A stretch of DNA of 64,000 bases from Polytrichum commune (taxonomy: Eukaryota > Streptophyta > Polytrichopsida > Polytrichales > Polytrichaceae). The translations under genes and the position numbers were made by a program. Under the pieces are notes generated by a model. It searched no databases. It was not told the origin of the DNA and was given only the letters and a program-made list of their open reading frames with translations. Each line of letters opens with the position of its first letter. Position 1 is the first letter of the stretch. Positions 19,258-59,465 of the stretch are shown in pieces. Where the stretch lies: contig OX485805.1 in assembly GCA_950295325.1 (NCBI GenBank), forward strand, positions 19,517,501 to 19,581,500, written 5' to 3'.

Positions 19258-19316
19258 TTCACTGGAGGCAATGGTGTCATATGACTTGCAAATTTTTCCT
19301 TAGTGCATTTTGTTAT

Positions 19317-25021: not shown

Positions 25022-25030
25022 ATCGATCAA
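25022..25030. repeat. 9-bp target site duplication, left
   Basis: ATCGATCAA here is repeated exactly at 36715-36723. A 9-bp duplication is the Mutator hallmark. Confidence 0.9.
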
Positions 25031-25112
25031 GGGGGAGTGCTATCTTATGAGCGGTGAGCAATGAGCGGTGAGCGATGAGCGGTAACTTATGAGCAGTGAG
25101 GAAAATGAAAAT
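25031..25112 (+). repeat. MULE terminal inverted repeat, left
   Basis: Begins GGGGGAGTGCTATCTTATGA and continues with four GAGCRRTGAGC-type units. It pairs with 36633-36714 in inverse. Confidence 0.88.
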
Positions 25113-28100
25113 TTTGGTAATAGGGCCACCAATATCCTATAACCGTGGAATTGTGGCCTTAAAAATGATGATTTTAGGGTTTAGTAATAAGAGGGTTGAG
25201 AAGGATAAACAACATGAAGTCCAAAAATTTATTCATCAGTAGTAGCACTAGACATGAAACTATCTTTTGCCTCGTCATCTATATATATTCGAGCACCTTT
25301 GCATTGCGAATTGATTTTGGAACTATAGCAAGATTCTTCATTTGGATCCGAATCTTCGAGATTCAACATTGCAATTGCAACATTCTCGGCATATGATGGG
25401 AGACGCGGGCTACGGCTTGGACTTCGTAGGAATTGTCTATGTGCCCAAAACGGGAGACATGTCCTCTTTCCAATCGTATTCCTGAAATCAAATCGATGAA
25501 ACATGTAAATAATGTGAAGAAATAAAAATGAACCAATGAATTGAATGAAACGAATGAATTGAATAAAAATTTATTGTATTAAAACTTACTCACACTCAAA
25601 TTCAAGCATCTCCTCATCGGAGAGGTTATCATCTTCTTTTGTGAGATCTTGTTTATTCTCCTTAGATGACCCCTCTTTCAAAACCATTTCCAAAAGCGGT
25701 TTCAATATGTGCTCAAACATGTCATTATCACCCTCAAATGCAAGAAGATGTCTGCCACATGCGCGTGTTGCTAGGATAGAAGCTCCAGTGGAACATGTCA
25801 AATCAACAACGCGTCCATTCGATGGTGTAAACAATTCAATAAGATCTTGAAAAAAAACGCGGCGATTTTTGATATGGCCCCTTCCAAGGTCTTCCCGATT
25901 TTTGAAGAAGCATGTTTTTTTCATCCACAAAATTGAAAAGCAAATTTTTGCTTTTCAATCCAGTGCCAAAAAAAATGGAGTTTGGTTGTCTCGTGGATTT
26001 TGTGGTAGTAAAATTCCTTACCAAGACATGAGCCATAAATGCCGGAGTCTACAAAAAAATGTAAATTGTGTTAAAACTATATACAATGCAAATAACACCA
26101 AAATAATTAAATAGAAACAATTGTGATGTGTTATACTTACGGTGTAGGTTGGAGTCTCTGGATCCTTGAACACCATGTACGAATTGAGGCAAATAAAAGT
26201 CCTAAGAACTTTCATGTTGCCGTTCTGTAAGGTTGAATTCAAAACCTTCTTGGTTTGCATATCGATAGCAGAAAATACTATGAGGACGTCATCATCAGAC
26301 AAGATGGACTTGCATAAGGACATTGTTGCAACCATCCAGTTTTTGTCATATTTATTCCTAAGAGGAATTTCAGTAGGTCTATTGGAGAGGTTGAAGTCAA
26401 AACCGTTGGCAAATTGCAGAAAAACCAAGTCAACGGCAAATGAAGTCGGACTTCCCATGACATGAAATTCGCGATTGTCTTTGAACTGAAATACCACAAC
26501 ATATCACAATATAAGACACAAATTAAAATCCAAATGGAAGTAAGAACATTACAGAAAATACCAAAACAATAATACTTACGTTTTCAAGAAAATGCCCGCC
26601 ATTGGATCCACTCAGGAGGGCCTACTTCAACCCCTTCAGACTTGTTCTTGACAGCAGTAGATCGAGCAAAAGAGAGCGTGAGAAAGTTCTTCAGTATGAA
26701 TAACTTTTTTCTCAAAACATTCGTTGGCGCACGATGAATAACGTCATAGGTGCTCGAGTAATGAAATTCCAATACATCGCACCTAGACTTTGAACTTTCG
26801 CCTCCAAGTGGATTCTTATCCAAATCATTGGAAATAACAAGTAATTCTTCATGTTGTGAAATTTCCGATTGATCTTGTATTTTGGTTTCAGGAACATGTT
26901 TCATCTTACGACGTTTTGTCTCTTTTGGTTCTGGCTCTCTAAGTTTAAGCTGCACAATTTGTGCTTACAAAATTGCAGTATCACGAGGATCCACATTTTT
27001 AGCATCATTTATCTGACGGATTGTCTTCTCACTTGACGGACATGCATCCTTAGGACAATCAAGATACCAACCACAATCCTCATAGTGTGGTAGCGACCAA
27101 TCCAAACAAATCTCAGTAGTGAACATGCATGAATCTCCTGCACCAGTGTCACGCCAATTTGGGAAAAAACGAGGCTTCCCTATAACGCATTTATGTGGAA
27201 TCAAAACATATCGAAAATACCTACACACAAAAATATTGTAAGTCAAATATTCCATGACAATTTGACAAATAGAATCAAAAAAATCAAAAAAATAATAAGA
27301 TTAGGTTGTACCTGTATAATACACGTTTCATAGCAAGATCAATATTAGGTTGCTCATCCCAACCGTTGTATTTTTTAACTTTTCTGCTTTGGAATTCACG
27401 ATAGAATATTGAATTGAAAGCCGCAAACTTTTAGGTTTTGATATACTCGGAGAGAGTAGGCACATCTGCAGGCAACTGAAGAGGAGATGAAAGAATACTT
27501 TGAAGCTCTTCGATAGCTTTTTTTCCCAACTGTGCCCAATATGTAGACTTTGATAACCAATCATCAAGTGTAGAATCAGAAAGGGGCGATTTCGGGAAAT
27601 GCAATGCATCTTTGTCAAATCTATTGCCAATCCAAAGCTTGAGCCATCCAACTTTGACTTCTGCATCCACATTACTGACAGCAACACGATGAAGTTTCTC
27701 TTGTAGCATTTCAGGCACCGAAAATGAACCCCAATGGCACTTAATTTCTTCAAGGAAAGCAGAGGTAAGGTTGATGTCGGCAATCGCTAGTTGTTTTGTA
27801 AAACTAGAGATAACATTGCACGTTTTTTGTTGACAGCTGCGGACATTGCTTTTGAAACTCCGTCTGATGTCCGTTCAAGAGGATGAGTTTCATTATACTG
27901 GTTGAGAGCAATATCGCTAGCCTCAGCAAGTTCTTGCTGAAAAATCAAACAAAAGTCAATATTTAGGGTACATATAGATGTAATGTAAAATGAAGATGAG
28001 GGAAACATAAGGCACATATTAGCAATGGTAGAAGAACTTACACTGTACATGTAATCCAAAAAAATTGGTCGTGTCAAAGAATACCAAGTTTCGACGGACT

Positions 28101-29229
28101 TCTCCTCACATCGTTTATAACTCTTTGGATCCAGTTGCTTTCTGAAGGAAGTCAAAGGCATGGTGCCAATACTTTGCATCCGATATAAAGTATGCACCAA
28201 ATTGTTGGATACGTGAGAATTTTCGGTCGACCTAAAAAAAACATTAAATTGATTAGAATCATCATAATATAATTTGGAAAACAAAATATAAACTAGAAAT
28301 AAGTGTAAAAAAATAGGTAAGAACATTACTTGTTGATGTCATACATAGCAGTCAACAAACTTGGAATGTCGTCAGGCTCGGGCGCCAAAATGATAGAATC
28401 CACAAAGACATGACGTTCATAATCTTTGGTATATACGCGGTCAATATAATTTTTCCAAGCAAAAAATCTGTGATTTCCATCCCATATAAAAAACATCTTG
28501 TTCTTGTATGACGTCAATGACAAATCTGTATCCAATTGAGATCCAAACAGGGCATTGGTTTGAGCCCAATTTGGGCTCCAAGATGCGCGAACCTCATCAT
28601 CCATGAATTGAAAGTTTCCCTTAGAATCGGTGGCCGATATATAAAACACACGGTCACCATCACGATAACCATTGAAAAAACCAGCCTCCAATTTAGTAAT
28701 GTCACCTTTCAAAGCAGGACGCACAATCGGCATAGGAACCATGCGACATAAGGGTACACGCAAGCGAGCATTAGGTCCAACACGGATTGAGGAAATTGTG
28801 GAAGTGGAATTGACCTTTCGTTTGTTCGTAAGCTCCCACATTTTGATAAGTTTTATTGTCACCATCATTATCTTCATCTGAGTCAAAATCATCGAGGGAT
28901 TCATTTATTTTTTTCTTTTTCTTATTATGAAGATTTGACGATATGTCCTGATGATGAACTTATTGAGATGGACGATCTTGAGTTGAATGCATTATGGAAT
29001 CATCATCAGTGGAAATAGGAGTCGTTCTCACCAAATCCATTGATTGGTCCTAAAACAAATGAAATAAGTTTCATAAATACTTCAAAATCAGTAGCAACAC
29101 ATAAGCAATAACATTACAAAAACAACAACAATAACAACAGAATACCACGAACACAGGGAAAAATGCCAAAAATTATTCTAGACACTGCCATTTCCACCTT
29201 TAAATATTGTACGATTAGGGTGGCCACTC

Positions 29230-29280
29230 ACCCCAAAACTACAAGGGCAGACCCTGTGCGTTAACGCACAGGGTCTGTGT
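29230..29280. repeat. Palindrome family 2, single copy
   Basis: AGACCCTGTGCGTT followed by AACGCACAGGGTCT, a perfect dyad of 28 bp, in intron 1 of the cargo gene. Confidence 0.85.
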
Positions 29281-29314
29281 GTCCAATTACAGGTCTACTA
29301 AAGTTGGACGCGAG

Positions 29315-29528
29315 GTTTGCATCGTTCGACCCAAACTAGGTAGACAGTTTGGGTCGAACGACCCAAACCATACTCACAGTTTGGGTCGTTCGACCCAAAC
29401 TAGGCAGACAGTTTGGGTCGTTCGACCCAAACTAGGCAGACAGTTTGGGTCATTCGACCCAAACCATGCTTAGAGTTTGGGTCGTTCGACCCAAACTAGG
29501 TAGACAGTTTGGGTCGAACAACCCAAAC
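29315..29528. repeat. Palindrome family 1 array, 7 copies, about 32-bp step
   Basis: Copies start at 29315, 29347, 29379, 29411, 29442, 29475 and 29507. Each has GTTTGGGTCG and CGACCCAAAC arms (a few one-base changes) around TT or AA. The step is 31-33 bp, about three helical turns, so the dyads face the same side of the helix. It lies in intron 1 of the minus-strand cargo gene. Confidence 0.95.
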
Positions 29529-29740
29529 TTTCCGCAATTTACGCCTAATTATGCGCAATTACCCAGTCACCACGAAAGTGCAAACAAACCTTGTACTGCA
29601 CCTGTAGATGAGAGAGCTTGCAGCGATGAGCTCAGGTCCGACGGAGGAGAGAAAAAAGACTGAATGCTTTGGGGGTGTGGCAATTTATACTACTTGTCCC
29701 AGCAGCCATATTTAGCGTGGCTCTTCGTGGCCCCGCATAG

Positions 29741-29875
29741 CCGCTAGAAAGTTGCCAGCGCAGACCCTGTGCGTTAACGCACAGGGTCTACTTGCCCAAC
29801 TTTGCGAAGCCTCTATCTAGGCAAGTAGACCCTGTGCGTGAACGCACAGGGTCTGCGCTGGCAACTTTCTAGCCA
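29741..29875. repeat. Foldback: 55-bp arms carrying palindrome family 2
   Basis: 29741-29796 and 29820-29875 are inverse copies with one or two mismatches and a loop of about 23 bp. Each arm contains a family 2 palindrome, so the structure is a hairpin with nested hairpins. More degraded copies follow to 29960. Confidence 0.88.
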
Positions 29876-30404
29876 CTATGTATTAGCGCATACACCCTGT
29901 GCGTTAGCGCATAAGGCTTGTGCGTTAGCGCATATACCCTGTGCATTAACACACAGGGCCGAGATATGAATTTGATTTGGAATTCGTAGATTTGCCGAAA
30001 CTTGTAAAATTTGGAAAAAATGCTAATGGGGGCCAAAAAAAAAACAAAAATATGCTATATTATCTAAATATCCGTAGCTACAAATTCTTCTAATATTTTG
30101 TTTTGGTTTGAAATGATTTTCTTTTCTCATTCTTCTATCTATTTCCTAGTTTTGGGCCACCTCGTAGATTTTGGGTTTCGGGGCAAAAAACAATTATGCT
30201 ATTTTGTGTCATTTTCTAGCTCCTATAACGTATTGCATGAGTACTTGAGTAGTCATATTTGTCATTTCTTGCATTCTAACCCCGTTTTCAATAGATTTTT
30301 TGCTCCTACGTTCTGAACATCGATTTAAATTCATACAATAGATATTTGGTTTAGTTTTAGGCTCTCTTAGTCGTTTTACCTCCCAACTTTTGGCCTTCCT
30401 AAAT

Positions 30405-31075
30405 TGCTCTTACAAACCTTGTGCGTTAACGCATAGGGTTTTACCTCCCAACTTTGGCCTTCCTAAGTTGCGCTTACAAACCCTGTGCGTTAACGCACAG
30501 GGTTTCTCCTCCCAACTTTGGGCTTGCTAAATTGCACTTACAAACCCTGTGCATTAACGCACAGGGTTTCACCTCCCAAGTTTTTGCCTCCTAAGTTGCT
30601 CTTACAAACCCTGTGCGTTAACGCACAGGGTTTCGCCTCCCAACTTTTTGCCTCCTAAGTTGCTCTTACAAATCCTGTGCATTAACGCACAGGGTTTCTC
30701 TTTCCAACTTTTGGCCTTCCTAAGTTGCTATTGCAAACCCTGTGCGTTAACGCACAGGGTTTCGCCTCCCAATTTTTGGCCTCCTAAGTTGCTCTTATAA
30801 ACCCTGTGCGTTAACGTACAAGGTTTCACCTCCCAACTTCTCGCCTCCTAAGTTGCTCTTATAAACCCTGTGCGTTAACGTACAGGGTTTTTCCTCCCAA
30901 CTTCTCGCCTCCTAAGTTGCTCTTATAAACCCTGTACGTTCTCCTCCTGACTTCTAGCCTTCCTAAATTTCTGTTATATACCATGTGCATTAACGTATAG
31001 GGTTTCTCCTCTCCAATTTATAACCTCTATAAATTGCTACTACATGACATATGAGTGAACGTACAAGGTTCTCCA
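30405..31075. repeat. Palindrome family 2 tandem array, 64-bp step, about 11 copies
   Basis: The core CCCTGTGCGTT/AACGCACAGGG lies at positions starting near 30421, 30485, 30549, 30613, 30677, 30742, 30806, 30870, then decayed copies near 30934, 30984 and 31051. The spacer (CCTCCCAACTTTTGGCCT and CTAAGTTGCTCTTACA) is conserved, so this is a satellite rather than a CRISPR-like array. It lies in intron 1 of the cargo gene and decays toward exon 1. Confidence 0.95.
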
Positions 31076-31411
31076 TCCTAACTTACAACTTATGCACTAT
31101 CAAATTATGTGAACATTGAACTGACTTACCTTTTTGTTTGTCGTCTTCTTTGAACCCGTCTTCAATTCGGACTCTGATATACGATCGTCTACATCTTCTT
31201 TGCTCTTTGCACCTTCATCATCCTCCATCGCATCAAAATCCAGTGTCTTCACAGTTTCTTCTACCGTACTCAACAAGTTTCTTTTTCCTTCCTTATTTGC
31301 ATCATTCTTTCTCACACTGAGTCTGAACCTCTTTTTCTCGGAAGTGAAATACAAAGTTTTCTTACGTCCTCTCTTCGGCCTCACGGGTGTTCTCTCTATA
31401 TCGTCCACCAT

Positions 31412-31935
31412 CGTTGGTGTCTATGATATGTTTTCTATCAGGTACTATCATTTATTCTTCCAATGTATCTATCTCACAAAATCCGGCGTATATTACGATC
31501 ACATGTTGTAATTGGCGTTCAATGAACGAGATATTTCGACGTGTTTGTCATTCTGTGTTTATTTTTGTTATATCCGCCAAAATTTTCTGACACCTACTTT
31601 GTTCTATTCATAATGATCAATAATTTATTTTTCCAACCAATTTTAATTTTTTGTATATCTACGTCAGTCCACACATATATATTTTAAATTTCTACCAATA
31701 CTTTTAGTATTTGACGCCATTTTGTGTATATATTTTGCTCGTAAATATTCTCTGACTATTATTGTGTTATGTCCATTTCTGTATTATTAGATGCTATGTA
31801 TCACACGCTTTCATCTGCATCCATTATTGTATCACACGTTTTCATTTCCATTCATTTCCTTACACAACTCTATACAAAAGCAACATTCACCCCATATTTT
31901 TGTGATGTGTTGTTCATATGTTCTTTTGATTTTCT
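31412..31935. promoter_or_regulatory. Divergent intergenic region between cargo gene and transposase
   Basis: These 524 bp separate the two head-to-head starts (31411 minus, 31936 plus) and must contain both promoters if the genes were expressed. It is AT-rich with no palindromes. No TATA box was confidently assigned. Confidence 0.45.
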
Positions 31936-34099
31936 ATGGCTACCATTAGAGCTCATGGATCTTTTGTTCCCTTCATCTTGCCACTCCAAGATGATGGTCA
32001 TGTGAGTGTTTCAGAGGATTTACTTAGTTTGAAATTCAACCTCCAGATAGGAACCATGTATTTAGAGCATGAGATGTACTCTGCAGATGGAGAGGTGTAT
32101 GAAACGATTTTGGATCCAAAAAATAGAACTGATGTTGGTTTTATGTGGATATTAGGACCTGGTTCATTTAGGGTGATAGGACTTTCTGAGTCTCAGATGC
32201 AAGCTTCAACTGTCATTTTGACAAACGAATCCGGTACATCCACAGTTCAAATTCCCTCTATCACACCTGTTAAGGTGGAACCCCTTGATGATAGTGTGTT
32301 TGTGCTATCAGATTCAGAAGATGACATTTGTACATCTGTTGATCTTTTAAACACATCGTCATTTCCATTTAGAAGTGTTCATTCTACTCCTTCCCAACTT
32401 CCTATACATGTAGCCAAATCCCCTTGCAGTCTTATGTACAAGAAGGTGGTTTCCCAAATCTCACCTTCTCAACGTCCTCCACTACACCCTTCACCTTCAT
32501 CTACAGGGTTGACTATGGTTGATACCTTGAAGCTGACAAAGTCAAGAAAAAGATCAAAGTCCGATCTTGCATCCATTGATTTTGACAGTATAGATGTTCG
32601 TGAAGTCAAGTACTTACCATCTTCTTTTAATGGTGATGTTTTGTTTTTCTTGCCTCCTGTGGCACTTAAAGCTCCAAGTACATATGGTCGCTCAATGGAC
32701 GGCATGGACAAGATGTGCGACGGTCACCCTTGGTGCACCACCAAAACCATAAATATCCAAAATGACTTTGGACTGTCCTTCCGGCGTTCTACTTGTGCTG
32801 GTCATCTCCAATGTCATAATGACTACTGTGTTTACATAAATCGCAATGGGGGCCTCCGGAACAACACTGAATGGGCCGGTTCAACTCCTATCCCATTTGC
32901 TGTGGGTGTTGTTCCTCCTACTAAGTCCACTGTCGAGTGTAAGGTATGTCGTTCCACACCTGTGTGCATTGCTTTGTGTAGTGCTCGAATTATATACATC
33001 CACTCCACATCCGTTGGAATGTCTAGGGCTTGTATTCATCTTGGTGTACATGATCACCCTGTGGCCAATGGCACATGCCGTGAATCATTGGACATGGCAT
33101 ACCAATGCGTTGCAAATGAAGTATTAAAAACACCCACAGCAAAAAATTCAGCCATAGTTATGGAGGCGAGCAAACAATTCTTGGCCGATTACCTTCTCAA
33201 ATCTCCCGCAAATGTCGAAGGCCATCACTTGGTTGGTTCATCCCTAGAGGTCGTCATAGACAAATTCAGCATTCTTGCGTCTCCAAATTGTCGTAACTTT
33301 GAATCTGGATTAAAGCGTTTTTTGCGTAGTGGAATGGGAACTATGGATAGTATTATGGCTCTCAAAGACCACTCTACTTTCAAATTCGTCCATGGTAGTC
33401 GGTTCCCAGGGCAGTCAAAGGACAAAGTGTTTGTTTTCAAGATGTCTGTAGACCTTCCAGGTAGTGGTGTGGAGCTTGTAAAGAGGATGCAAGTAGGTGG
33501 GGATATGGAGAATTCATGGATTATGTTTGACCATGTCAAACGTTTGAAGGACTGGACGACCATGGCTTGCCATGTGTACGACAGTGGATACTGTAAAGTG
33601 TTGACTATTGCGTGTTGTGACATGCAATCTGAAGATGGTGCAACACAAATTCTCTTTTGGGAAAATTTGAATGCTGTCATGGCAGAAAATGGTGTACCAA
33701 ACGTAAACTTCAAAGGGTTTATGGCTGATAGTGCTTAAGCTAATTGGAATGCGGTGAGGGCGATTTACGGGGATGGTGATCCAAGTCTACCCATGGTTGT
33801 ACGTGAACGTACATATCTTTTCCATTGGTCCGCAAGCTTGGATAAGGTGACCCAAAAGTATATCAAACCATCCTTGCAATTTCAATACAAACAAATATGC
33901 AAGGATTACAAAGACGCGAAAACAATTGACGACGCTGAGACCAAATACCATGTGATTCGTTCTTGGTGGTTGTCATCTGGAGCTGCCTCCGAAGAAGGCA
34001 TCATTGGCCTTTCAGAGTGGTTGGGATTTTGGCACTTTCGTTACAGACAATGGGGTGGCCATATGCTACTTGTAAGTACATATCAAACTTCATTACTCA

Positions 34100-34500
34100 A
34101 TGTAGTATATCTTATGTTTTTCTTATCTTTGTCTTTCTGTGTTGTTCATAGGATATAACAATAGAAGAGCGTGCGGGAATGCCAACATGCAACCTTGCAG
34201 AGACTGTACACAACAAACAACAAACAGTTTGGGTCATTCGACCCAAACGTGGCAGCCATTTTGGGTCGAACGACCCAAACTACGCAAACAATTTCGGTCG
34301 TTCGACCCAAACCTTGTAGGCAGTTTGGGTCGTTCGACCCAAACGTAGCAGCCATTTTGGGTCGAACGACCCAAACCTAGATATATAATCTATCTTATGT
34401 TTGTCTTGTCCTTGTATTTGTGTGTTGTTCATAGGATATGACAATAGAAGAGCGTGCGGAAATGCCAACATGTAACCTTGCAGAGACTGTACACAACAAA
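34100..34500 (+). repeat. Duplicated intron/exon junction around a palindrome array
   Basis: The intron end plus the exon start (TTGTTCATAGGATATRACAA and GCCAACATGYAACCTTGCAG) occurs at about 34131-34208 and again at about 34425-34500. Five palindromes lie between the two copies. The first copy is an orphan second acceptor and exon start. Confidence 0.85.
34227..34376. repeat. Palindrome family 1 array, 5 copies, exact 32-bp step
   Basis: Copies start at 34227, 34259, 34291, 34323 and 34355, exactly 32 bp apart, with central bases AT, AA, TT, TT and AA. It lies inside the duplicated intron segment of the transposase. Confidence 0.95.
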
Positions 34501-35739
34501 TGGCTCCAACAGTCCGGCAACAAGATGACTTGTTTATATGAAGCTACAGTGGACGACATGATCCGTGCCTTCATGCAAATTGCAAATTGCAAATTACCGG
34601 ACATGGTTGAAAGGGGGGTCGGATGGTAAAGGTCCTGATTCGGCCTCCTTGAAACTCAAAGCAGCTGCCAGGTGTGGAGATCCAAAAATGTTGGCCGATG
34701 CCATGAAGTCTTATCCAGGGGCAGAAGACGTCAACACGAGAGATTGTGCATTGGAAGGGTCAGAGCTCTTTGGTTCCACTAAACGCAAACTCAACCTACC
34801 ACCGGGTGCTGATTGTGACTCTCATCGACCCGACAAAGTGAACTATTCCAGTCCTCGTCCCAACACCCAAGCAACTCGTCAACGCATAGAGGAATCGTTA
34901 AGTTCTGCAATTCATGGTGTGGCTCATACTACATCCGTGTTAGAGACTGATTGTCTTGCTTCTAAGTGGCACATTGCAAGATTGCCACCCAACTCAGCCA
35001 AACGTTGTTGGGCACTGCAGGCCATTACAGGGACTATGTGCAATGCCAAAGTCGGGACTGGGAAACATGACACACCTGCTCCAACATACAAAGGGCTCAG
35101 GAAGGAATTTCGCTCTCCCAACAATGTGGAGTATGAATTTTGGTTTTGTCCTGACGACATCAAACGTTGTGTAAGTGGCAGTAAGAAGAAATATGTGTTG
35201 GATTGGCCTATAGTACCCAACACGTGGCCAGTGAAGATAGGTACCAATCTATCGAGGAGGAGGTTTTGGCACTTGAAGATGCTAGATTTCAACTACAGCA
35301 GAGGGAGGCATTGTCTCCTCGTCGTAGGCTTTCAACAATCGCAACTCTTCCCATCCCTCGCTCGCATTTTTCTATGCCACCAAACCCAGACGCCCACCCT
35401 ACATTCAGATTTGGGAAGACAGTGCGTCGTAATCCAACAGCACCTCTGGCGAATCACAAAAACAAATGGGAGAGCGCCGGACTTATGGAAGGTTACTATG
35501 TGGTTGGGGTCACTGCCATTCCATATCCGGGCTTTGGAGTGATAATCAACATTGTCTCCAAACAGGATATCACCTACCATGTCACAATTGGTGATATCCC
35601 GCATTGCACATGTCCAGATTTCACGAAAATGTCCTTTCATGCATTGGGAAAGAAAGGAAAATGGATGTATTGTAAACATCTTTATTATGTGTTTAGATTT
35701 TTGTGCAAGGTGGATTACGAGAGTGACAAGTTCATTCAT

Positions 35740-36480
35740 GCACCTACATATACCTATAATGAGGTCATGCGACTACTTGAACTTGCTGGTATTGTAGAAT
35801 GTGAGTAGTATTGCAAGTGTTTTAGTAAGCAACATATATTTGAATGTCAATAAATGACATGTTTTGGTTTGGATTATTATAATAAAAATTAGTAGTGGAC
35901 TGAAAGTATTTCAAATGATTCAGTAACTTCATTTTTATTTAGACTGCGACCCAACCATGTGTGGTTTGATTGATTCACACGGATAAATAATAACACGTTT
36001 TTAAAAATAAAAAATAATTAAGAAGATTCTACGCACATCCGCGTAGTAACGTCTTCTTGGTATCCGCCTATAGATTATTCCTGCTTTATCACTAGCTCAA
36101 TTTGGGATAGCACCAGTCAATGTAACCAACCGGATTCGAACCCGGGTTGATCCAGACCTAATACCAGTCTCTTACACAACTCGCATCCACAGGCGGATGT
36201 CTCAAAACCTAGTAGCTACCTACATATTCACTATTTTTAATATCTAATTTTCTTTCGTTTGTAGATTCTAGGCCTTTATTCAACCCGTGAGCAGTTTGAG
36301 TGGCTCACAATTATGGCACCGACATATATGTATAATGAGGTTATGCACCTACTTGAATTTGCTGGTGTTGTAGAATGTGAGTGGTTGTACAAGTGCTAGT
36401 TGTAGCTACATGTATAAGGATGTCAATAAATGACATGTATTGGTTTGAATTGTTATAATAAAAATCAGCAATGGATTGAA
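35740..36480 (+). repeat. Duplicated 3' end of the transposase gene
   Basis: 35740-35910 (last codons, stop and 3' tail with TGTCAATAAATGACATG) is repeated at 36315-36480, about 80% alike. The second copy lacks the rest of the gene. The tRNA-like insert at 36005-36205 lies between. Confidence 0.8.
36005..36205 (-). mobile_element. tRNA-derived SINE-like element
   Basis: The minus strand has CCCGGGTTCGAATCCGG (about 36130-36146), an exact B box, and then a unique body ending in a T/A-rich tail near 36005. The A box is less clear. It lies between the two copies of the transposase 3' end. Confidence 0.55.
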
Positions 36481-36632
36481 AGTGTTCTAAATGATCCATG
36501 GAAATAGGGCCCTTTCACTTGTGCTTCATTTTAAATATTGGCAATTTATAATTGAAAATATGCAATTAATTTGTCAAAAATTTGGTTGTAAACCCTAAAC
36601 CCGTGTGTCTTTACTAAATTTGGATTCATTGC

Positions 36633-36714
36633 TCATATGTTACTGCTCATTGCTCATGTGTTACTGCTCACCGCTCACCGCTCACTACTCATCGCTCATA
36701 AGATAGCTTCCCTC
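36633..36714 (-). repeat. MULE terminal inverted repeat, right
   Basis: Ends GCTCATAAGATAGCTTCCCTC with CCGCTCACCGCTCAC units inside. It is the inverse of 25031-25112. Confidence 0.88.
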
Positions 36715-36723
36715 ATCGATCAA
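36715..36723. repeat. 9-bp target site duplication, right
   Basis: ATCGATCAA, identical to 25022-25030. Confidence 0.9.
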
Positions 36724-38817: not shown

Positions 38818-39072
38818 TCACTATATTCGTTAATTTGAGACTTTCTCTTGTCTCAAATTAATATTTGGACCACAACAACATGGTCTAATGTTTGGGTCGT
38901 CCTACCTAAACCATCTTGATATGAATTCTTAATCGGGTTCTTCATATGAACACCCGCTTCAAAGTATTTGCATCTTACAACATTCTTCAATATCTGTGTG
39001 ATTTTATCCATGTTCTTATATTTGTAACTGTCTCAAAATGCCGAAAAAGTCCCAAATTAACGAATATAGTGA
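38818..39072. mobile_element. MITE, about 255 bp, holding a degraded palindrome
   Basis: TCACTATATTCGTTAATTTG at the left is mirrored by CAAATTAACGAATATAGTGA at the right. Inside, at 38890-38911, a motif resembling palindrome family 1 (GTTTGGGTCG, then a changed second arm) is present. One end of a related copy starts at 48602. Confidence 0.75.
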
Positions 39073-39847
39073 TAATATGGAAAATTAAAAACATTTACTT
39101 TAATTGTGTTCACCAACACATTCAACTATAGTCACATTCAAACTTTATAACAAACATTTCCAATGTGAAGGGTTAAGATACAACTATGCACCCTCCAATA
39201 TTATCAAGATGCATGGTCAACATCCTCTACAATGTCATGATAAAACCATGATAAATTGTGAGAGGTTTAGCATCAATGACGACGAATATCTAAAACTAGC
39301 TGATGGTATGAGGGGGCCAACCTTCAAAGTCTCCAACCACTCCACCTTTCGCCAAAAAATCCCACGACATTTTCCTCCATATCAACACGCTTGATTCAAA
39401 TTTGGACAAAAACTACACACTTCTTCATCCAAGTAGTCAAACCCATAATTATTTTATTAATCCTACTACACACTTTTAGGGGGATCCTATGTCTGTGACC
39501 TTTTTCCTTTTTTTTTGGTTACTAAAATGGAGGAATTATCCACCACCTTATTTTACACATAATCATGTAGGGAACATATTTCCAATGCTAAGGTAGATTT
39601 AATGAAATTATAAACGAATTAAATTGATCCTTTTTTTTTATCTCACATGGTTTTCTAAAATTCCAATAGTCACCTCCTTGAGAGTTGCTTTAGGATTATG
39701 GGCGGCCATGAAGTTCCATACATGGTTTGATTTTTTGGCTGAAGGTCTTATGGTTGTTTTGGATGCGGTTTAGGGTTTAGAGTTTCTATACGCAGCTTGT
39801 GATTGATTGTTCCTCTTATGTTGGGGTGACCTTATTGGAGTTTACAG

Positions 39848-50063: not shown

Positions 50064-50909
50064 TCAAATGAGTTTATTATATTTCGCGTGAGCGTACAAC
50101 TCTCTGTACATATAGTCCTTCGGATCCATGTATCTTTCGCCTATCGGATTACAACTAAGGAACCGGGGCACGGGTAGTCCGCTCCCCACGAGCGTTTGAA
50201 TGTACTTAAGTAGGTCTAACAAAAAGCGGTCTCGGACCTTTTCGACCGTCCACGTGGGGCAAACTATGAAGTTCGAGGTCGGGTTCAAAATGTTCTTGGA
50301 AGTGCTGTCGTCCACCATCAACGTGTTGTCACGGGTGGGGCGAACGTCGTAGGGACAGCCGACCATGGTCGGACGCTGGTCCCATACGACTGGCTTCAAG
50401 ACCTTAAGAAATTGGTTTACGGCGGGGTTGTTGGGCTTTTTCACAACCCTGCCCTCGGGGGTGTATAACGTTCTACAAGAGTCCTGTCCTAGGACCAAGC
50501 ACGGGGGTTGGAGTCCCTTGAAGATGAACTCCACGACGGCCTGGGTGTTCTCGGACTTCATGGAGCTCCACACGATCACCCACCATTTGGATAGGGCGAC
50601 CTGCAGGAAGCGCCGAAGCCACGGGCGGAGGTACACTAGCTTGCTTTTGATGTACGCGGGGGGACCATCGTAGTTGGCGTCCTCGGGCTTGCAGAAAGGC
50701 ACCGTGGGGACCCTCGGACAATGCACGCACTGGACAAGGACCCCGTTGAGGTCTAGCACCAGGAACCGGGTCTTGGGAGGCGAAGGTGGCGAGGGCAAAA
50801 TCGGGGGGACCACCGCGCTGTCCTCCACACTCCTCGGAGAGGATCGGTGGGGAGCTGCGACGCTATGCTCCGAACCCTGCGGCGACGAGCGAGAGAAGGC
50901 GGACGAGGA
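50064..50909 (-). CDS. FCP1/NIF-type phosphatase-like exon (HAD fold)
   Basis: The frame from an acceptor-like CATAG (just above 50909) to TGA at 50064 gives 281 residues. It holds FLVLDLNGVLV (the HAD motif I, D-x-N-G rather than D-x-D-G), WWVIVWSSMKSENTQAVVEF (motif II region), VKKPNNP, and MVDDSTSKNILNP (the double-aspartate motif). FCP1/NIF-type enzymes remove phosphate from protein serine or threonine; plant members with DLNG are known. The second motif I aspartate is replaced by Asn, so catalysis is uncertain. There is no in-frame ATG before the domain, so it needs an upstream exon. The best candidate is the ParB/methyltransferase-like gene, whose last exon carries a GTAATA donor at 51365, in matching phase. 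Confidence 0.7.
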   Translation of the reverse strand, partial: SSSAFSRSSPQGSEHSVAAPHRSSPRSVEDSAVVPPILPSPPSPPKTRFLVLDLNGVLVQCVHCPRVPTVPFCKPEDANYDGPPAYIKSKLVYLRPWLRRFLQVALSKWWVIVWSSMKSENTQAVVEFIFKGLQPPCLVLGQDSCRTLYTPEGRVVKKPNNPAVNQFLKVLKPVVWDQRPTMVGCPYDVRPTRDNTLMVDDSTSKNILNPTSNFIVCPTWTVEKVRDRFLLDLLKYIQTLVGSGLPVPRFLSCNPIGERYMDPKDYMYRELYAHAKYNKLI

Positions 50910-51321: not shown

Positions 51322-51343
51322 GTTTGGGTCGGTCGACCCAAAC
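51322..51343. repeat. Palindrome family 1, single copy
   Basis: Perfect arms around GT. It would lie in intron 3 if the phosphatase-like exon is joined to the gene above. Confidence 0.95.
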
Positions 51344-51353
51344 TGGGGAGGGC

Positions 51354-54300
51354 TCAGTGTATTACCTCGCCCTGGTCATGTCTCGACGATGTGGAAGCCT
51401 CCACCGTCCCCGTTGCCCCGCCTCTCTCGCCACCGCCTTCTCCGACGACGTTAGGAACCTTCTCCTGCAAACGATCGGCATCAGGCCCTTGTCCTAAACC
51501 AATCTCCGCATTTGCATCATGCATGGGTTCATCGATTTGGTTAGGAGTAGAGGTATCACCAGGCCCTTGCAAGCCTTCAACATCTAGCATGGCCGTGTCT
51601 AGTTGACACCCATGTTGGTCAAGGGAGGACTGCGCTGCAACGGGGTTTGGGTCGGGCGACCCAAACTGTCCTGCATCTGGAGAGGGCCCTTCGGACACTC
51701 CAGTGGATGGTGGGTTTGGGTCGGTCGACCCAAACATCCTGGGGTCGTCCGATTGGTGAGGGGGCGCCATGACTATCGGGGGCCGAAGTGGTGGAGGGCC
51801 CAAAGGGGAGGAGGCTCCAGAGACGCGCCAGATGTTGGGGTCATCCACTTGCTGGACCGGCGCGTACGGAACTTGGTGGGGCCGAATCAAGTGCTGGAAG
51901 CTGAAAGACGATTGCGGCACAGGCTGCTGAGGGATGCTCTGCGGAGGGAAGCCGGGGGGCAAGTGCAGGAAGGAGCTGGAGGGAGCCACCACCAAACCTT
52001 GCGCCCACATTCCTTGTATCACTTGTGATATCAATTCGGCGTGGGACGGAGGTTGGGCCATCGCCCTCTGTCGTTCCTGCTCCAACAGGAGAGCCCTTAG
52101 CTCTGCTACCTCGTTCCGCATTGAGGGTTCTTCCGCGGCAGCCTTCTGCAGGCGGACTCGCTGCTCCTCGTCCCTCCTCATCTTCTCGTTCGCCTCCTCC
52201 ACAGTCAGGACCTCGGGCTTCACCCTAACCATGCCAGCGAACGCTGTCGGGGACGGGGGATCTGATCTTAGCCGTTTGGCGAGCTCAATGTCATCGTCGT
52301 CCTCGCTGCTTATGGCAATGGTCTCCTCCACGGAGTAGTCGCCATACAGCTTCTTCCCCTTCATCTTCCTCCTCTCCCTGAACGTGGCGGTCGCGTCCCT
52401 GGAGTACATGTCCCGTGCATCGTCCACCGTCAGGACGGGCACGAGCTTACTCTGCGGGGTTGCCGCCCGCATCGCCTTCTTCCGTTGAGGGGCTTCGGAT
52501 TCTTGCGTGAAGCCCGTTGCCCCTTCCTCCACGTCGCCTTCCTTCTCCGCCTCCTCGTGCTCCTCTTCTTCCTCCTCCTCCTCGACATCGCCACCTTCTA
52601 TGCGGGACGGATTGCCCGGATGCAACCCGACAAGAGGTTCGGGTTCTTGGGTTGTGGCCCTCATGGCCATTTCTTCCGGGTTGATCCGCCTCACCCTATC
52701 AAGAGGGTTTTCGCCCCCCTGAACAACCTCGTCGACGTAGCTACCCGGGATCCAATCAAGGATGTCCATCTTCTTCGCCAACGATCTCTGCGTCCTGTAA
52801 AATGGCAGATCGCCATCCTCTATGTAGGAGTATATACTCAGCCCCGACATCTACACAATCCAAGTTATATAGACATTAGAATTAGGCGAGGGACATAAAC
52901 AAGACCAAGTACAATGTGTAGTTTGGGTCGATCGACCCAAACCAACAAAGAGCCTAGTTTGGGTCGATCGACCCAAACCAACAAAGAGACTAGTTTGGGT
53001 CGATCGACCCAAACCAACACAGAGCCTAGTTTGGGTCGATCGACCCAAACTGCGCACGAGTTATAGAAAGTCGCTTACCATGGCAGCATAGATAGGTTTA
53101 GAGCCTCCGAAGACGTTGAAGATGCAATCCCCTCTCCTCGTCAGCGTCCTCATCATTCTCACGTAAAATTCCATCCGCAGCTCATCTAAAGGATAGTTCG
53201 CGTATTTAGCCTCGTCGTAGAGGCACTTGTTGACACCCAACCCTTCTGGAACTTGGAAGAGTTTGTCCATCCGGGATATAGGGTGGTTCGGCACCTTCAG
53301 CAACTCCGCTTTGTACACGAAGTACAAACACAAGACGTTGACGAACTTGGTCTTCTTGTCCCTCAACGTCGTGTAAGCTCCCTCCGCCGGTGCGGCGATG
53401 TAGTGAGACTTGGAGACTGCATACTCCGGCTGCAGTTTCCGGACAAGCTCGTACACCTGCTCCGCCCTCCTATCCTCGACTATCCAAAGCCAGATATCTA
53501 CCTCCCTGAACTTAGGGCTTGCATAATCGACGAACTTAGATAGGAAGGGGTCATAGAAGAGGGTGCTCATCGTGCCCTCAAATGAGCTTCCAGGAATATT
53601 CTTGAAATCAATCATCCCAAAAGGAAAGCGGTCCCTTGCTTTCGTCCTTATCGCCATTCTGGCGTCTTGACCTGGCCAGCCCTGAATTTTCAACGGGTCG
53701 GCGGTGACAAGGTTGAAGTACGCTTCCCCTTCAAACTGGACAATCTTCTTCTCCTTGATGAAGTTCGAGAACGCACGCGCTGTGTGATCCGGAAGCGCCC
53801 GGTTCTTCCCACCCTTCACCATCTTGGCCCGCAAGAAGTCGTCCCCCGCTTCCCTTATTAGAGCCGCCATGGAGGCACTGGTGAACTTATATTCAGCTTT
53901 GAATGCTCTCCAGTTAGCCTCATGGACCTCGCCGTCCACGACAATATTCCTCTCTGGCACTAGTTTATGCAGCTCCTGCACGATAGTCGTCTTCTTTTTC
54001 CTGTTATCCGTCCATTCCTTCATGGTGTAGCATGAAGGAACGAAGGATTTGGGCTTTTGGAAGACAATCTTCGGGTGCACCCAACACCTCTTCGCCGTGG
54101 GTGCCACGTGCAGGATGTGAGATGCCGCCTTCTCCACCTCCGTCTCTGACAGCCCTTGAAGAGTTCTAAAGAACTCTCTCACGAGAGGCTTCATCTGCTT
54201 GAAGCGCGAGGTTTGGCTGAAGAAAATGCCAGTGTCGGGGTCGATCAAATCCCCCGTCTCGTGCTTTTCAAACACGGTTTTCCACTTCCTCCAAACTGAG

Positions 54301-56039
54301 TCAGATGCTGTAATCAAGTAAATTTCCCCCTTGAGGTCGTTGTATTTCTTCTGCTTGTGGCTCGAATTATCAATGGAGGAGAATTTGTTGATCATTTGGT
54401 ATTTGAAATTCTGCACGTCCACAAAACAGAACATTTGAATGCGTGTTAGATATGTACATGTGATTTCCAACCCATATCATGACCAACATCTGCAACAATA
54501 GTTTGGGTCGATCGACCCAAACTAAATAAACTAGCTGCATCAGGAGTTTGGGTCGGTCGACCCAAACTAAATAAACTAGCTGCATCAGGAGTTTGGGTCG
54601 GTCGACCCAAACTAAATAAACAAGGCTGCATCAGGAGTTTGTGTCGGTCGACCCAAACTAAATAAACAAGGCTGCATCAGGAGTTTGGGTCGGTCGACCT
54701 AAACAATACTCACCTCCCATTTGGGATTCTTGTCCTTCGCATTCTCCCTCTCCTTGGGAGGCCTACCATAGAACTCCCACACCTCCCGCGAGGCCATGAT
54801 ATTCTTTATCCAGGAAGTTTGGTAGGCCCTCTTCTTATTTCCCATATTGAAGTACCGGGAGATGTCGCTGAGCTTGGTCTCGTCGTCAGACCACACCACT
54901 AGTGCCTTCCAAACCTTCAGCTTTTCCTTCTGATTGTTCGGATCATCCCACTCATTCATGAGTTGGATTTTCTTGGATGCCTCCACGCTGTGTTGGCCGT
55001 CTATGAGCCAAAAATCGCCCTTCTGAATTGTGGGCCACATTTCAGGTGTAGGCATTTTCTTGAGACCCTGTGGCATCACTACTATCGTTTGCCTGTCGTC
55101 TTTAAACTGCTCGCAAACGATCTGCGCGATTATCCAGTCAACGTAGGCGTCCTCCTTTGCCCGGACACACTTCTCCGGTGGCGCTAGATGGCACTGGCTG
55201 ATGTTCACGTCGAACTTAAAATCCCTGCCCATGAAAAAACAGTGGGAGCATTTCGTCGTGAAATTGTTCACGATTTTCTGCAGCTCCCCTGCATCCACCT
55301 CTTCGCCGGGCTTCGGCATGCGCAACTCCGGTGAGACTGGCTCGTCAGTCATCACAGATGACTCTCTCCCCCTCTTGGATGGAGTTGTTTGACGGCTCCC
55401 AGAAGGTGTAGGCGTCTCGCTATCCGCAGGTGTTTGGGAGGGAGTGGTCCTCCGCGAGTCAGCCGGTACTGGTCGCGGCTTCCTCACCGATTGAGGTCTT
55501 GACGACCCTGCTCCTTCCTCTGTGGTTGCTTTCCGCCTCACGGGTTGCTGAGACTTGGTTTTGCTCTGCAGGGCTTTGTTGAGCACGCTGATTGCATGCT
55601 TTAGTTTCGTGAATCTGCTCGACACCTTTGTGTTCGATGTACTGTTGTCGATGAATATGGACTCCGGTTTGATGACGTCTGGTTCTACACATGTTTCTTT
55701 TGCATAGATAGCGTCAAAGGGTTCGGAGAACTGGTGCATAAACATATGCGCGTTCTGGACAGCGTTGTTCTCGAGGATGACATCCACGTAGTCTCCAAGA
55801 GACTGAACCGATGCCACCTCCCACCCCGTAAGAGTAGCCCATGTGTGCTTCTCCACGGTCCCAACCTTCACAACAAAAATCATTTTGTATTGCGAACCCT
55901 TAACCACTTGTATAGACCACGCGAGGACAAGCCCGTCCTTAGGGGAATAGGAGTCATCCTGCGGGGTTTCGTGCTCCTGCCACAACATGTCCGGCGCAGG
56001 CATGAACCACCTTTCGCCGGGTCTTTTCTTTGGAGCCAT
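51354..56039 (-). CDS. ParB-like / amino-methyltransferase-like protein, intact
   Basis: Exons 56039-54714, 54410-53079 and 52850-51354, all phase 0 with good borders (GAG/GTGAGT, GTGCAG/AAT, ATG/GTAAGC, TGTGTAG/ATG), give 1384 residues. An acceptor directly before the ATG shows a 5' intron. Residues about 160-235 are Ser/Pro/Thr-rich. DFWLIDGQHSVEASKK (D at about 347) is a ParB/sulfiredoxin-like core. YFNLVTADPLKI (about 673-684) sits where beta-class methyltransferases have DPPY. GDCIFNVFGGSKPIYAAM (869-886), then IYSYIEDGD, resembles the AdoMet-binding F-x-G-S motif, split exactly by intron 2. The C-terminal part is acidic, then coiled coil, then Pro/Gln-rich, with two palindromes read as FGSTDPN and FGSPDPN.
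All introns hold palindromes. Whether it methylates DNA is unknown; ADPL is not a canonical active site. Confidence 0.75.
51645..51735. repeat. Two palindrome family 1 copies inside coding sequence
   Basis: Copies at 51645-51666 (centre GG) and 51714-51735 (centre GT), 69 bp apart, are read in frame as FGSPDPN and FGSTDPN in the Pro-rich tail of the ParB/methyltransferase-like protein. Confidence 0.93.
52921..53050. repeat. Palindrome family 1 array in intron 2, 4 copies, 36-bp step
   Basis: Copies start at 52921, 52957, 52993 and 53029, exactly 36 bp apart, all with centre AT and perfect arms. The host intron is 52851-53078. Confidence 0.97.
54501..54704. repeat. Palindrome family 1 array in intron 1, 5 copies, 45-46-bp step
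   Basis: Copies start at 54501, 54546, 54591, 54637 and 54683; centres AT then GT. Unit linker ACTAAATAAAC...GCATCAGGA. The host intron is 54411-54713. Confidence 0.97.
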
Positions 56040-56641
56040 CTGTAAGAAAATAATGTGCAATGTTAGTTTCGGTCGTTCGACCCAAACATCTACGACATGA
56101 ATAGGTTTAGGTGGATTGTATATTTATATATTTCAGCATCATTTGTATTGATAATAAGAATGTTTTGATTATTGGGTGGATTTGCATTTTATATTGTTTG
56201 TGACATGCAGGATTACTTGATACTTTTCCTTGATACATTCCTTGATTATTATTTTTTAGTGGATGTGAATTTTATATTGATGCAAAAATCATGGATTTCT
56301 TTATGAGTTTATAATTAGAAGACGTTGTTTGGGTCGTTCGGCCCAAACATGATGCTTTGTTTTGTGTTTGGGTCGGTCGACCCAAACAAGAGGCTGTGTT
56401 TGGGTCGTTCGGCCCAAACATGATGCTTTGTTTTGTGTTTGGGTCGGTCGACCCAAACAAGAGGCTGTGTTTGGGTCGACCGACCCAAACCTGTGGCCGT
56501 GTTTGGGTCGTCTCCCCAAACTTTCCTATTTTAATGTAATTTTTAAAAGTTGGCACGTAGCATATACAATGCTTATGCGTTGTGTATGCTACAATACCTT
56601 CAATTGACAAACACTTATTGCATATAATAAAAGAAAATACC
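56040..56641 (-). other. Probable 5' intron of the ParB/methyltransferase-like gene
   Basis: The acceptor TTTTCTTACAG lies directly before the ATG at 56039. A donor-like AAAGGTATTTT on the minus strand lies near 56641. The palindromes at 56066-56522 lie within it. Confidence 0.5.
56066..56522. repeat. Palindrome family 1 array in the 5' intron, 7 copies
   Basis: Copies start at 56066, 56327, 56366, 56398, 56437, 56469 and 56501. Steps alternate 39, 32, 39, 32, 32. Two copies (56327, 56398) share a changed arm, CGGCCCAAAC, showing that a two-copy unit was duplicated. Confidence 0.93.
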
Positions 56642-56779
56642 TTTGTTGTATGTAGCAGTTGTTGTAAACAGTTGCTTTAGAACAGGTGTTCTTCTTCCAA
56701 TAACACAGAAACAGTTGAATGTAACCTCTCACACAAATCCACAATCTCTCATACAACTCCTAGATCTCTTTTGAATCTC

Positions 56780-57080
56780 TCAAACAACAATTCAATACTT
56801 CAAACAACCTCTGAATCTCTAAGAACAAGTGAATCTCTCAAAACAATAACTGACTCTCTCAAATGACTTAGATATCTCTCAAACAACAATTGAGTGTTTC
56901 AAACAACCTCTGAATCCCTAAGAACAAGTGAATCTCTCAAAACAATGACTGACTCTCTCAAATGACTTTTGTATCTCTCAAACAACAATTGAGTGTTTCA
57001 AACAACCTCTGAATCCCTAAGAACAAGTGAATCTCTCAAAACAATGACTGACTCTCTCAAATGACTTTTGTATCTCTCAA
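56780..57080. repeat. 99-bp tandem repeat, about 3 copies
   Basis: AAACAACAATTGAGTG at 56881 and 56980, with a less similar first copy from about 56780. CTCTCAAA-rich; no coding content. It lies in the likely 5' leader or promoter region of the minus-strand gene. Confidence 0.85.
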
Positions 57081-57653
57081 ACACCTCCTGATTATCTTAT
57101 AGAACTCCTAAATCTCACAAACTCTCCAACTACAATACAGCCTCCAAAACCCGCAAGCTTAGAATGTTGGAAAACCCTTCAACAATCTTCTACTTACTTC
57201 ACTCTACAACAATCACTCTACTAACTCTCACGCACTCTAAAACTCTCTCCTTAGGTTTCTGTTCTATTGCAAACACTTCCTAACTTCTACAGCAAGAGAA
57301 GGGAGGGAAGGAGAAGAATCAGTAGGCGCCAAAGCAACAAGAAGGGAGGGAAGAGAAGAAAATCGCCACCCTGAATCGCCACGGCGCTTCGCGAAAGCGG
57401 CGCTTCAGGAGAGGCGGCGCTTCCACAAGAGGCGCGGAGCGAATGCTTGGCGCGGAGAGAGAGAGAAAGAGCGAAAAGTTGTGACGGCTGGGGTTTTGTA
57501 TGCCTCGGGAATTGGCCCCCAACCGCACGAATAGGGTGCCAACGGGATTAGGGCACCAACGGAATTAGGATTACGGGGAACCCTAAATCCTAAAGCCAAA
57601 CTGTAAACCCTTAGCGGGCATTAGTATTTTCAAGACACTTTGGAGTACCCTAA
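57081..57653. promoter_or_regulatory. GC-rich, purine-rich stretch upstream of the minus-strand gene
   Basis: 57300-57480 is rich in GGCGC and GAGA on the plus strand and GC-richer than its flanks. It could be the promoter and first leader exon of the ParB/methyltransferase-like gene. No start site is identified. Confidence 0.35.
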
Positions 57654-58184
57654 TGGGGCATTCCCACTTGACTTTAGTTAAGACCCTCACTATTTTATAA
57701 AGACCGGGTAAAGCTCCCTCGGTTATAGCGGAGGCATCCAACTATCCCAATGCACCTACAAGAACTTGCTCCGGAGATTTTCAAGTAGGTTTTAGTTAAG
57801 TAGCTTTCACACATGTTCATGGTTTTATCTACCAAGCAATGAATGTTGGGTAGTTTTTGTCCCATCCCCAAATGCCTTACTACTCACCTATCTTACCATC
57901 GGTTTTTGTTAATGAAGCTCCTCGTGCCCTCATAGCTAAGACTAAAAAGCAACCAATCACAAGGGTGGGAGGCGACACTTTTAAAATTCCTATATTCTTG
58001 CCTAATGTTTAGGTACCGATGGGAGCGTCGGTGGTTGAGGCTTAAAACCTCCACTTTTAAGCCATGCCACATCATTTGCCACCTAGGCTCGGCACTAAAA
58101 AGAGCCATATGTGTGAAACCTAGATAACTAAAACCGCATTTAGACTAATACTACTTCTAACTAATGTCAAGTGGGAATGCCCCA
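57654..58184. mobile_element. Tourist-like (PIF/Harbinger) MITE, 531 bp
   Basis: TGGGGCATTCCCACTTGAC at the left and GTCAAGTGGGAATGCCCCA at the right are perfect inverses, extended by TTTAGTTA/TAACTAAT-type matches. A TAA duplication flanks it (57651-57653 and 58185-58187), the 3-bp T-A-rich target expected for Harbinger. Non-coding. Confidence 0.9.
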
Positions 58185-58628
58185 TAAGGTGCACATCAAA
58201 TGCGGTATTCTACAAAATGAAACCATTTATACAACTAATGCATTTTTACAACGCAACGTTATGCTAAAACTAAGACTTAACCCCTACTCACATGACACCA
58301 TAACCTAAATTTCCCAAACAAGTTGAAATCATTGGTTTCTCTTTTGTTTGAGCAAGTTAGAAAAATAATACAATTGCGTGACATTTAACGATGTAATCGT
58401 TGACATTTAGACTTTACCAATGATGCCAAGAACTCACACAATATGCAATGAATAAAAAATATAACCCCCGTCCCCCAACATGAAATTCGGAAATTTAGGA
58501 TATTTGAATGTGTTTGCTAAATGTATACCTTCCCCAAGAGCATTTTCTCAGGGTTTGGAATTGCATGATCCTTATGTCGAAATGCTAACATGCTCAAGTT
58601 TTTAGTAAATCCCTTACATACTCACTTG

Positions 58629-59465
58629 AATGAATCACATAGTCGCCAATAAACCATGGATCGTGATATATGTACTTCGAATGTGATATAAAAGTAAATC
58701 GGAGAACCACAACATCAAATGAAGCCCTTTGACGCAATCATGTTGTTATTGAATGTTCCCTCCACGTATATTACATAATGGCGCAAGATAAAGTTCATGT
58801 TGTTTGTATGTGGAGGTAGCAGTGAACAACTACGAATTTTTGTATTTAGGGTTTAGGGTTTAGGGTTTAGGAGTTAGGTTTATAACATATTAATCTATCC
58901 AATATTAACATATAACATTGACTTACTGGTGAGAATAGGTTTTTACTGGAAGGTAATAGAAAAGACGATCTTGATTATGTTTATTTGTTATTACGGACGT
59001 TTAAACGTGATATAGTGAATGGTCTTGTGTTTATTCAAATAACATGAAATGTTGTGGATGTTATTAGGGGTAAGGGGTTCAACTTTGGATGTTTTGCTCA
59101 CTTTAGGGAATCACATAGTCGCCAATAAACCATGGTTCATGATGTATTTAATATATGGAATGTGATGCAAAAGTAAATAAGAGAAGCACAACATCAAATG
59201 AAGCCATTCACGCAATCATGTTCTTATTCATTGTTCCCTCCACATGTATTGGATAATGGAGAAAGATATAACAGATATTGTTTGCATAATATGAAGAAGA
59301 GTCTAATAGGAAGGTTATAGTAAATACAATCTTGATCATGTTAATATGTTATTTGGGACGTTTAAACATGATATACTAATTGGTTTTGTATTTTGTCAAT
59401 ACGTATTTCATGTTGTGGATGTTATAAGGGTTTAGGGTCCAACTTTGGATGTTTTGGTCACACAC
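58629..59465. repeat. Long tandem duplication, with telomere-type repeats in one copy
   Basis: GAATCACATAGTCGCCAATA...CACAACATCAAATGAAGCC...GGACGTTTAAAC...TGTTGTGGATGTTAT recurs in direct order (58629 onward, 59107 onward). The first copy is longer by about 120 bp and includes four TTTAGGG units at 58847-58872. A short TTTAGGG run also lies at 59622. Confidence 0.8.

Follow-up and report, generated by a model that had tools for sequence, protein, structure and literature searches.

Overview of the locus

The stretch of Polytrichum commune contig OX485805.1 analysed here (64,000 nt, positions 19,517,501 to 19,581,500 of the forward strand, assembly GCA_950295325.1), hereafter referred to as the window, harbours a probable Mutator-like element (MULE), termed element 1. 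It possesses a transposase gene and, head to head with it, a cargo gene for a ParB-like and DNA methyltransferase-like protein. A second locus of the same layout, element 2, runs from approximately 48.6 kb to past the end of the window. Both loci carry arrays of one 22-bp palindrome, palindrome A (GTTTGGGTCGNNCGACCCAAAC), which within the window is nearly confined to them. The coordinates of the individual features are given in Table 1.

Table 1. Features of elements 1 and 2 and of the related fragment, with positions counted from the first base of the window.
Feature	Position	Strand	Basis
Left 9-bp target-site duplication, ATCGATCAA	25022..25030		Perfect match to right copy
Left terminal inverted repeat, element 1; built of GAGCGGT-like units	25031..25100	+	
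Element 1 cargo exon 8; stop codon approximately 200 bp inside left end	25229..25481	-	Exon model
Element 1 cargo exon 7; SAM-binding motif I VVDLTCSTGAS; frame change	25590..26048	-	PHROG, hhalign
Element 1 cargo exon 6; first half of beta-class methyltransferase-like fold	26141..26485	-	PF01555 below cut-off, MAFFT
Element 1 cargo exon 5; stop and frame change	26580..27220	-	Exon model
Element 1 cargo exon 4; middle region; frame change and stop	27312..27936	-	Exon model
Element 1 cargo exon 3; end of ParB-like core	28042..28231	-	Exon model
Element 1 cargo exon 2; ParB-like core FFIWDGNHRFFAW; stop and frame change	28330..29049	-	Exon model, motif
Palindrome B, ACCCTGTGCGTTAACGCACAGGGT; 12 copies in cargo intron 1 (3 mismatches allowed), of which 8 form 64-bp tandem units	29251..30888		
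Seven palindromes A, 32-bp period, cargo intron 1	29315..29528		
Element 1 cargo exon 1; basic N-terminus	31130..31411	-	Exon model
Element 1 transposase gene, broken; intron with palindrome array and duplicated exon start	~31945..35808	+	
Five palindromes A, 32-bp period, transposase intron	34227..34376		
Right terminal inverted repeat, element 1	36646..36714	-	
Right 9-bp target-site duplication, ATCGATCAA	36715..36723		Perfect match to left copy
Fragment 81% identical to left part of element 2 (48603-48801)	38876..39074	-	Sequence comparison
Element 2 cargo exon; phosphatase domain of NIF/FCP type, PF03031 (E 2.4e-13), continuing the reading frame of the linker	50064..50876	-	Pfam, exon model
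34 palindromes A, element 2; cargo introns, linker exon and upstream of DUF7869 gene	51322..61351		
Element 2 cargo exon; linker, two palindromes A in coding DNA	51366..52850	-	Exon model
Element 2 cargo exon; methyltransferase-like (VTADPLK ... NVFGGSKPIYAAM)	53079..54410	-	Motif order only
Element 2 cargo exon; ParB-like core FWLIDGQHSVEAS	54714..56039	-	Motif only
DUF7869 protein PF25273 (E 3.5e-42), putative transposase, continues beyond window	61552..64000	+	Pfam

Element 1: borders and transposase

Terminal inverted repeats are present in most MULE families, and in many of them the transposase has a SWIM zinc finger at its C-terminus. Element 1 proper spans 11,684 bp (25031-36714). Its inverted ends, originally predicted at about 80 bp, pair over 76 nt with 82% complementarity (25025-25100 with 36646-36721), a pairing that takes in six bases of each flanking duplication. 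The duplication itself was confirmed as a perfect 9-bp repeat, within the range of 8-11 bp given for MULEs in the survey of this group (PMC6446971). On the strength of this duplication, the inverted ends and the finger described below, element 1 is probably a decayed copy of a Mutator-like DNA transposon. CpG depletion was considered as a trace of methylation and dropped, element 1 being less depleted (0.72) than its surroundings (0.46-0.63).

The transposase gene is broken in this copy, its model containing one in-frame stop and two frame changes. The SWIM-finger transposase of the original prediction holds up in part. A SWIM-like finger of the form CxC...CxH lies at the C-terminus (35575-35682), but the Pfam SWIM family PF04434 matches it below cut-off (E-value 0.028, 14.4 bits against 19.6; 0.068 in a second search), and no MULE-type family of Pfam was detected up to an E-value of 10 in either the 215-aa core or the 1172-aa read-through. 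The order D...D...FH, which we take to be a transposase motif, is visible by eye. The palindrome array in the transposase intron is flanked by two copies of the exon start which are 91% identical (34100-34500), so that a local duplication may have brought the array in or enlarged it. The end of the gene and its 3′ flank are also duplicated (35740-36498, 82%), with 393 bp between the copies; this spacer contains a tRNA-like B-box stretch and is SINE-like by eye, and ARAGORN identified no tRNA.

Element 1: cargo gene

As originally predicted, the cargo gene can be modelled as eight minus-strand exons (31411 to 25229) with GT..AG borders and is divergent from the transposase gene. Its first and last exons are both located within the element ends. 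The gene thus starts and finishes inside element 1, and no minus-strand transcript extending past the ends, which the original prediction had named as an observation that would speak against it, was apparent. This gene is also broken in the present copy, the exon model requiring three in-frame stops and four frame changes. Some of the frame changes in the two genes appear by eye to be at homopolymer runs, and for those an assembly error is possible.

The beta-class N6A/N4C methyltransferases carry (D/N/S)PP(Y/F/W) as their catalytic motif IV. The methyltransferase-like core predicted for the cargo is well kept in its SAM-binding motif I and weak in its first half. Exon 7 matches PHROG 3008, a DNA methyltransferase (E-value 2.8e-5), at positions 159-233 of 244; in beta-class enzymes this part of the protein, which follows the catalytic region, contains motif I. 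With hhalign, the same exon matches a phage methylase profile with a probability of 93% (E-value 2.7e-7), compared with 0.1-0.6% for 10 shuffled sequences and 1.2% for a piece of the transposase. This profile was built of 64 distinct matched sequences and the query, from 79 IMG/VR loci and three phage regions, and its seed was the phage family giving the best tblastn match to exon 7 itself (E-value 0.04), no close phage relative of the exon being found by that search. As the seed was picked by its likeness to exon 7, it is the PHROG match that constitutes independent evidence. Exon 6 matches PF01555 with an E-value of 0.027, which is below cut-off. The pattern [DNS]PP[YFW] is absent from the 957-aa cargo reading and from every minus-strand frame of 25229-31411, and QFAN is aligned by MAFFT at the DPPY position of exon 6. 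In a PDB search, the best match of the motif I exon (E-value 3.4e-5) was a repetitive designed protein, which offers no support, followed by Erm(38) with an E-value of 0.015.

The ParB-like core (WDGNHR; FFIWDGNHRFFAW) was assigned solely from its motif and from order. WDGNHR and IDGQHS are motifs that we take to fit the ParB/sulfiredoxin superfamily, and a ParB fold is suggested for the cargo. Searches of phages and plasmids by tblastn with this core gave a best E-value of 0.3, and a PDB sequence search with it gave nothing.

Element 2

The four main cargo exons of element 2 are open and joined in frame, and under this exon model the protein has, in addition to the ParB-like and methyltransferase-like parts, a NIF/FCP-type phosphatase domain. 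In the active-site motif of the latter, LDLNGV, there is an Asn at what is presumably the second acidic position. The divergent DUF7869 gene may encode the transposase of the locus. Motif I of the cargo is altered (NVFGGSKP), and [DNS]PP[YFW] is absent from its 932-aa reading, where by eye DPLK stands in the place of motif IV. Motif order and layout suggest that the two cargo proteins are akin. The possibility that the locus consists of host repeats only was dropped, because DUF7869 and NIF domains are encoded there.

In a viral contig collection, no relatives were identified for the methyltransferase-like or the ParB-like exon of element 2, for its DUF7869 gene or for the transposase of element 1, with one such search giving three pattern matches and no true relative. 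None of six pattern matches of the methyltransferase-like exon in a prokaryote contig collection was confirmed. Inserted into element 2, between its two genes, is a MITE-like stretch of 541 bp (57649-58189) with inverted ends of 32 nt (94%). TTTAGGG-type repeats, which point to the green lineage, are present at 58845-58882.

Palindrome arrays

At up to three mismatches, 47 copies of palindrome A are present in the window, of which 28 are exact; none was found in 100 shuffles of the sequence. Element 1 accounts for 12 of them and element 2 for 34, and one (38890) is found in the element-2-like fragment 38876-39074. The last is the single copy in the remaining 37 kb of the window, a LINE-like element included. 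No match to palindrome A was found in either the viral or the prokaryote contig collection. When perfect palindromes of whatever sequence were scanned for (arms of at least 9, loop of at most 2), 40 distinct ones were recovered in the window. The two loci contain 38 of these (31 A, 6 B and 1 other); 50 shuffled windows gave a mean of 1.2 and a maximum of 4. Palindrome B belongs to element 1 only, with no copy in element 2.

The conserved block is sharply bounded. In 16 representative sites chosen by eye (uncorrected values), the 20 arm positions of palindrome A hold 1.33-2.0 bits and its free central dinucleotide 0.58 and 0.81 bits; the 24 flanking columns hold 0.02-0.58 bits, so that conservation ends abruptly. 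The arrays of element 2 have periods of 32/39, 36, 45-46, 55-56 and 64-68 bp with spacers that differ between arrays, and isolated single palindromes occur at 51322 and 56066. It should be mentioned that A-like sites with four to five mismatches, excluded from the counts, are also present at 48766, 48855, 48955 and 49080; three of these are mutually similar (48766-48976, located 3′ of the cargo gene of element 2) and may represent a decayed or diverged motif.

Although modelled exons cover 56% of the two spans, 45 of the 47 copies lie outside them. Counted by sites (2 of 16 in exons), such avoidance has a binomial chance of 4.5e-4. The two exonic copies lie in the linker exon of element 2 (51645-51735), where they are translated as FGSPDPNP and FGSTDPNP, the DNA motif thus being kept even in coding sequence. 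Neither the palindrome arrays nor the second locus featured in the original prediction.

Proposed role of the cargo and the palindromes

A bounded palindrome with a free centre and changing spacers is the trace that would be expected of a dimeric DNA-binding protein under selection. As the cargo is the part that both loci appear to share, it is the leading candidate for this binder. The explanation favoured here, for which we consider the chances to be evenly balanced, is that element 1 is a decayed probable MULE whose ParB/methyltransferase-like cargo is an element-directed binder, with the palindromes as its sites. Element 1 would have carried an accessory gene of ParB-like and DNA-methyltransferase-like type head to head with its transposase gene, and the accessory protein may recognise the dense arrays of long palindromes in the non-coding DNA of the element. 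The bound protein could then shield the element from host silencing, as VANC does for VANDAL, or mark it. The second locus would combine an unrelated putative transposase with a similarly built cargo and the same 22-bp palindrome. Of the proposal that the cargo reads, writes or blocks DNA marks, reading or blocking fits the palindrome arrays, while the lack of a DPPY-type motif makes writing less likely and favours reading or shielding.

A number of observations weigh against this explanation. Both genes of element 1 are broken. The original prediction of a ParB-type core was right as to the presence of WDGNHR, but no ParB family in Pfam, NCBIfam, PHROGs or PADLOC matched it, and single-sequence structure predictions of the cargo gave no usable fold (pLDDT 33.5 and 36.8, the latter for the ParB-like core). 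In pairwise comparison of exon 6 with the phage methylase, 156 of 200 shuffles scored as well. For the methyltransferase reading of element 2, the hhalign probability was 0.4% and 131 of 200 shuffles were as good in pairwise comparison. The cargo proteins of the two elements have no pairwise similarity, and it is not obvious that proteins so unlike would both bind one sequence. Finally, no terminal repeats of element 2 were found in the window, past which its right end lies.

That unlikeness of the proteins is also what would be anticipated if the palindromes were sites for something else, for instance the transposases or a host DNA-binding protein, the role of the cargo being unrelated. That arrays are found outside the cargo too, in an intron of the transposase gene and ahead of the DUF7869 gene, agrees with this as well. 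We regard it as unlikely, given that the two putative transposases match different families and that the other 37 kb of the window has just the one copy, which itself is in an element-2-like fragment.

It is also improbable that the cargo has N6A/N4C DNA methyltransferase activity and, bound by its ParB-like part to the transposon that encodes it, marks that DNA, which is the role put forward for the Sola1-1 protein of Ectocarpus. Sola1-1_Ec32 is described with the same domain pair and the same opposite-strand layout (PMC12477816), and motif I is well preserved in element 1. However, motif I is altered in element 2, and the catalytic pattern is missing from both the 957-aa and the 932-aa cargo readings as well as from the minus-strand frames of the element 1 gene. 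Least probable is that the arrays are a captured satellite or slippage-born minisatellites with no binding role and the cargo a decayed passenger: although the arrays are tandem, one of them sits between two exon-start copies and the genes of element 1 are broken, a single 22-bp block with several spacers and periods is unlike slippage of one unit, isolated copies exist, and the four main cargo exons of element 2 are open and in frame.

If the cargo is indeed the binder, the combination of dissimilar cargo proteins and an identical palindrome A means that one element may use the protein of the other, and palindrome B could be the target of the cargo of element 1 itself. A more far-reaching version, which we offer tentatively and consider rather doubtful, is that such proteins are catalytically dead palindrome readers which form parS-like clusters on 22-24-bp intron palindromes and so shield the element, with unrelated transposons sharing or stealing protection by carrying the sites of a partner, as element 1 might with B together with the A of element 2.

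Other features of the window

A LINE-like element is present on the minus strand at 11262-19299, with an RNase H domain (PF00075, E-value 4.4e-8), an endonuclease match that falls just below the cut-off (PF03372, E-value 5.1e-5) and a 2A-like stretch, DIETNPGP. One of its ORFs (12751-13872) matches PCIF1_WW (PF12237, E-value 3.1e-11), which we take to be a domain of an RNA-methyltransferase family. Positions 42807-43430 and 47187-47814 form an inverted pair that is 79% identical over a 644-column alignment. A search of the window against Rfam gave no match.

Relation to known systems

Accessory proteins with ParB and DNA-methyltransferase domains have been described in transposons of brown, green and red algae (Dinatale et al., 2025; PMC12477816, where Iyer et al., 2011, and Petroll et al., 2025, are cited for the green and red algal cases). 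These proteins are suggested to bind and epigenetically modify their own transposon, and no target sequence for them was encountered in that account. Like Sola1-1_Ec32 of Ectocarpus as presented in that account, the cargo described here appears to unite two domains of prokaryotic type in a single protein, and its gene runs opposite to that of the transposase within a large DNA transposon; the layout matches, with the ParB part assigned by motif and order only. The present cargo differs in being found in a probable MULE and at a DUF7869 locus, in having no DPPY-type motif, in the accompanying palindrome arrays and, in element 2, in the NIF domain.

The pairing had been predicted to be undescribed on MULEs, and the main text of the MULE survey indeed mentions neither 'ParB' nor 'methyltransferase' (PMC6446971). 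Nor was a paper on ParB and methyltransferase domains with a Mutator-like eukaryotic transposase found in the open-access literature, a scope that leaves out most subscription papers. However, since the cargo class is already known from algal transposons, only its host element, the probable MULE, would be new in this respect. What is new is the second locus of the same layout and the 22-bp palindrome shared with it; no literature search aimed at the palindromic target or at the NIF fusion by name was made.

The VANDAL elements are a group of MULEs listed with 9-bp duplications (PMC6446971) and a non-transposase gene. The VANC21 protein binds a short motif that forms tandem arrays within VANC21 and VANB21 introns as well as upstream of VANA21, and strips these regions of methylation (PMC5735166, PMC10398659). 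Tandem motif arrays in introns and upstream regions are a feature of the present loci too (cf. PMC5735166). In these accounts, by which the comparison is made, VANC is not described as a ParB protein or methyltransferase. The VANC21 motif is reported to be an oriented 9-bp sequence (YAGTATTAY) of which other transposons have few copies, whereas the present palindrome has 22 bp and is common to two different loci. Binding has been demonstrated for VANC21 and is proposed here. The fungal TET/JBP transposons, as described in PMC12730594, also have a DNA-modification-type gene alongside the transposase, although from another enzyme family. The domain pair itself occurs in fusions from bacteria and phages, an example being the ParB-adenine methylase reported from Bacillus cereus (PMC5512222). 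PHROG methyltransferases match element 1, but no close relative was found in phages (for motif I or the ParB core) or in plasmids (for the ParB core).

The 22-bp palindrome provides a concrete candidate site for the ParB/methyltransferase proteins of transposons. That both loci carry it although their putative transposases differ suggests that transposon superfamilies may be able to share protection from silencing, which would bear on how selfish elements cooperate or cheat.

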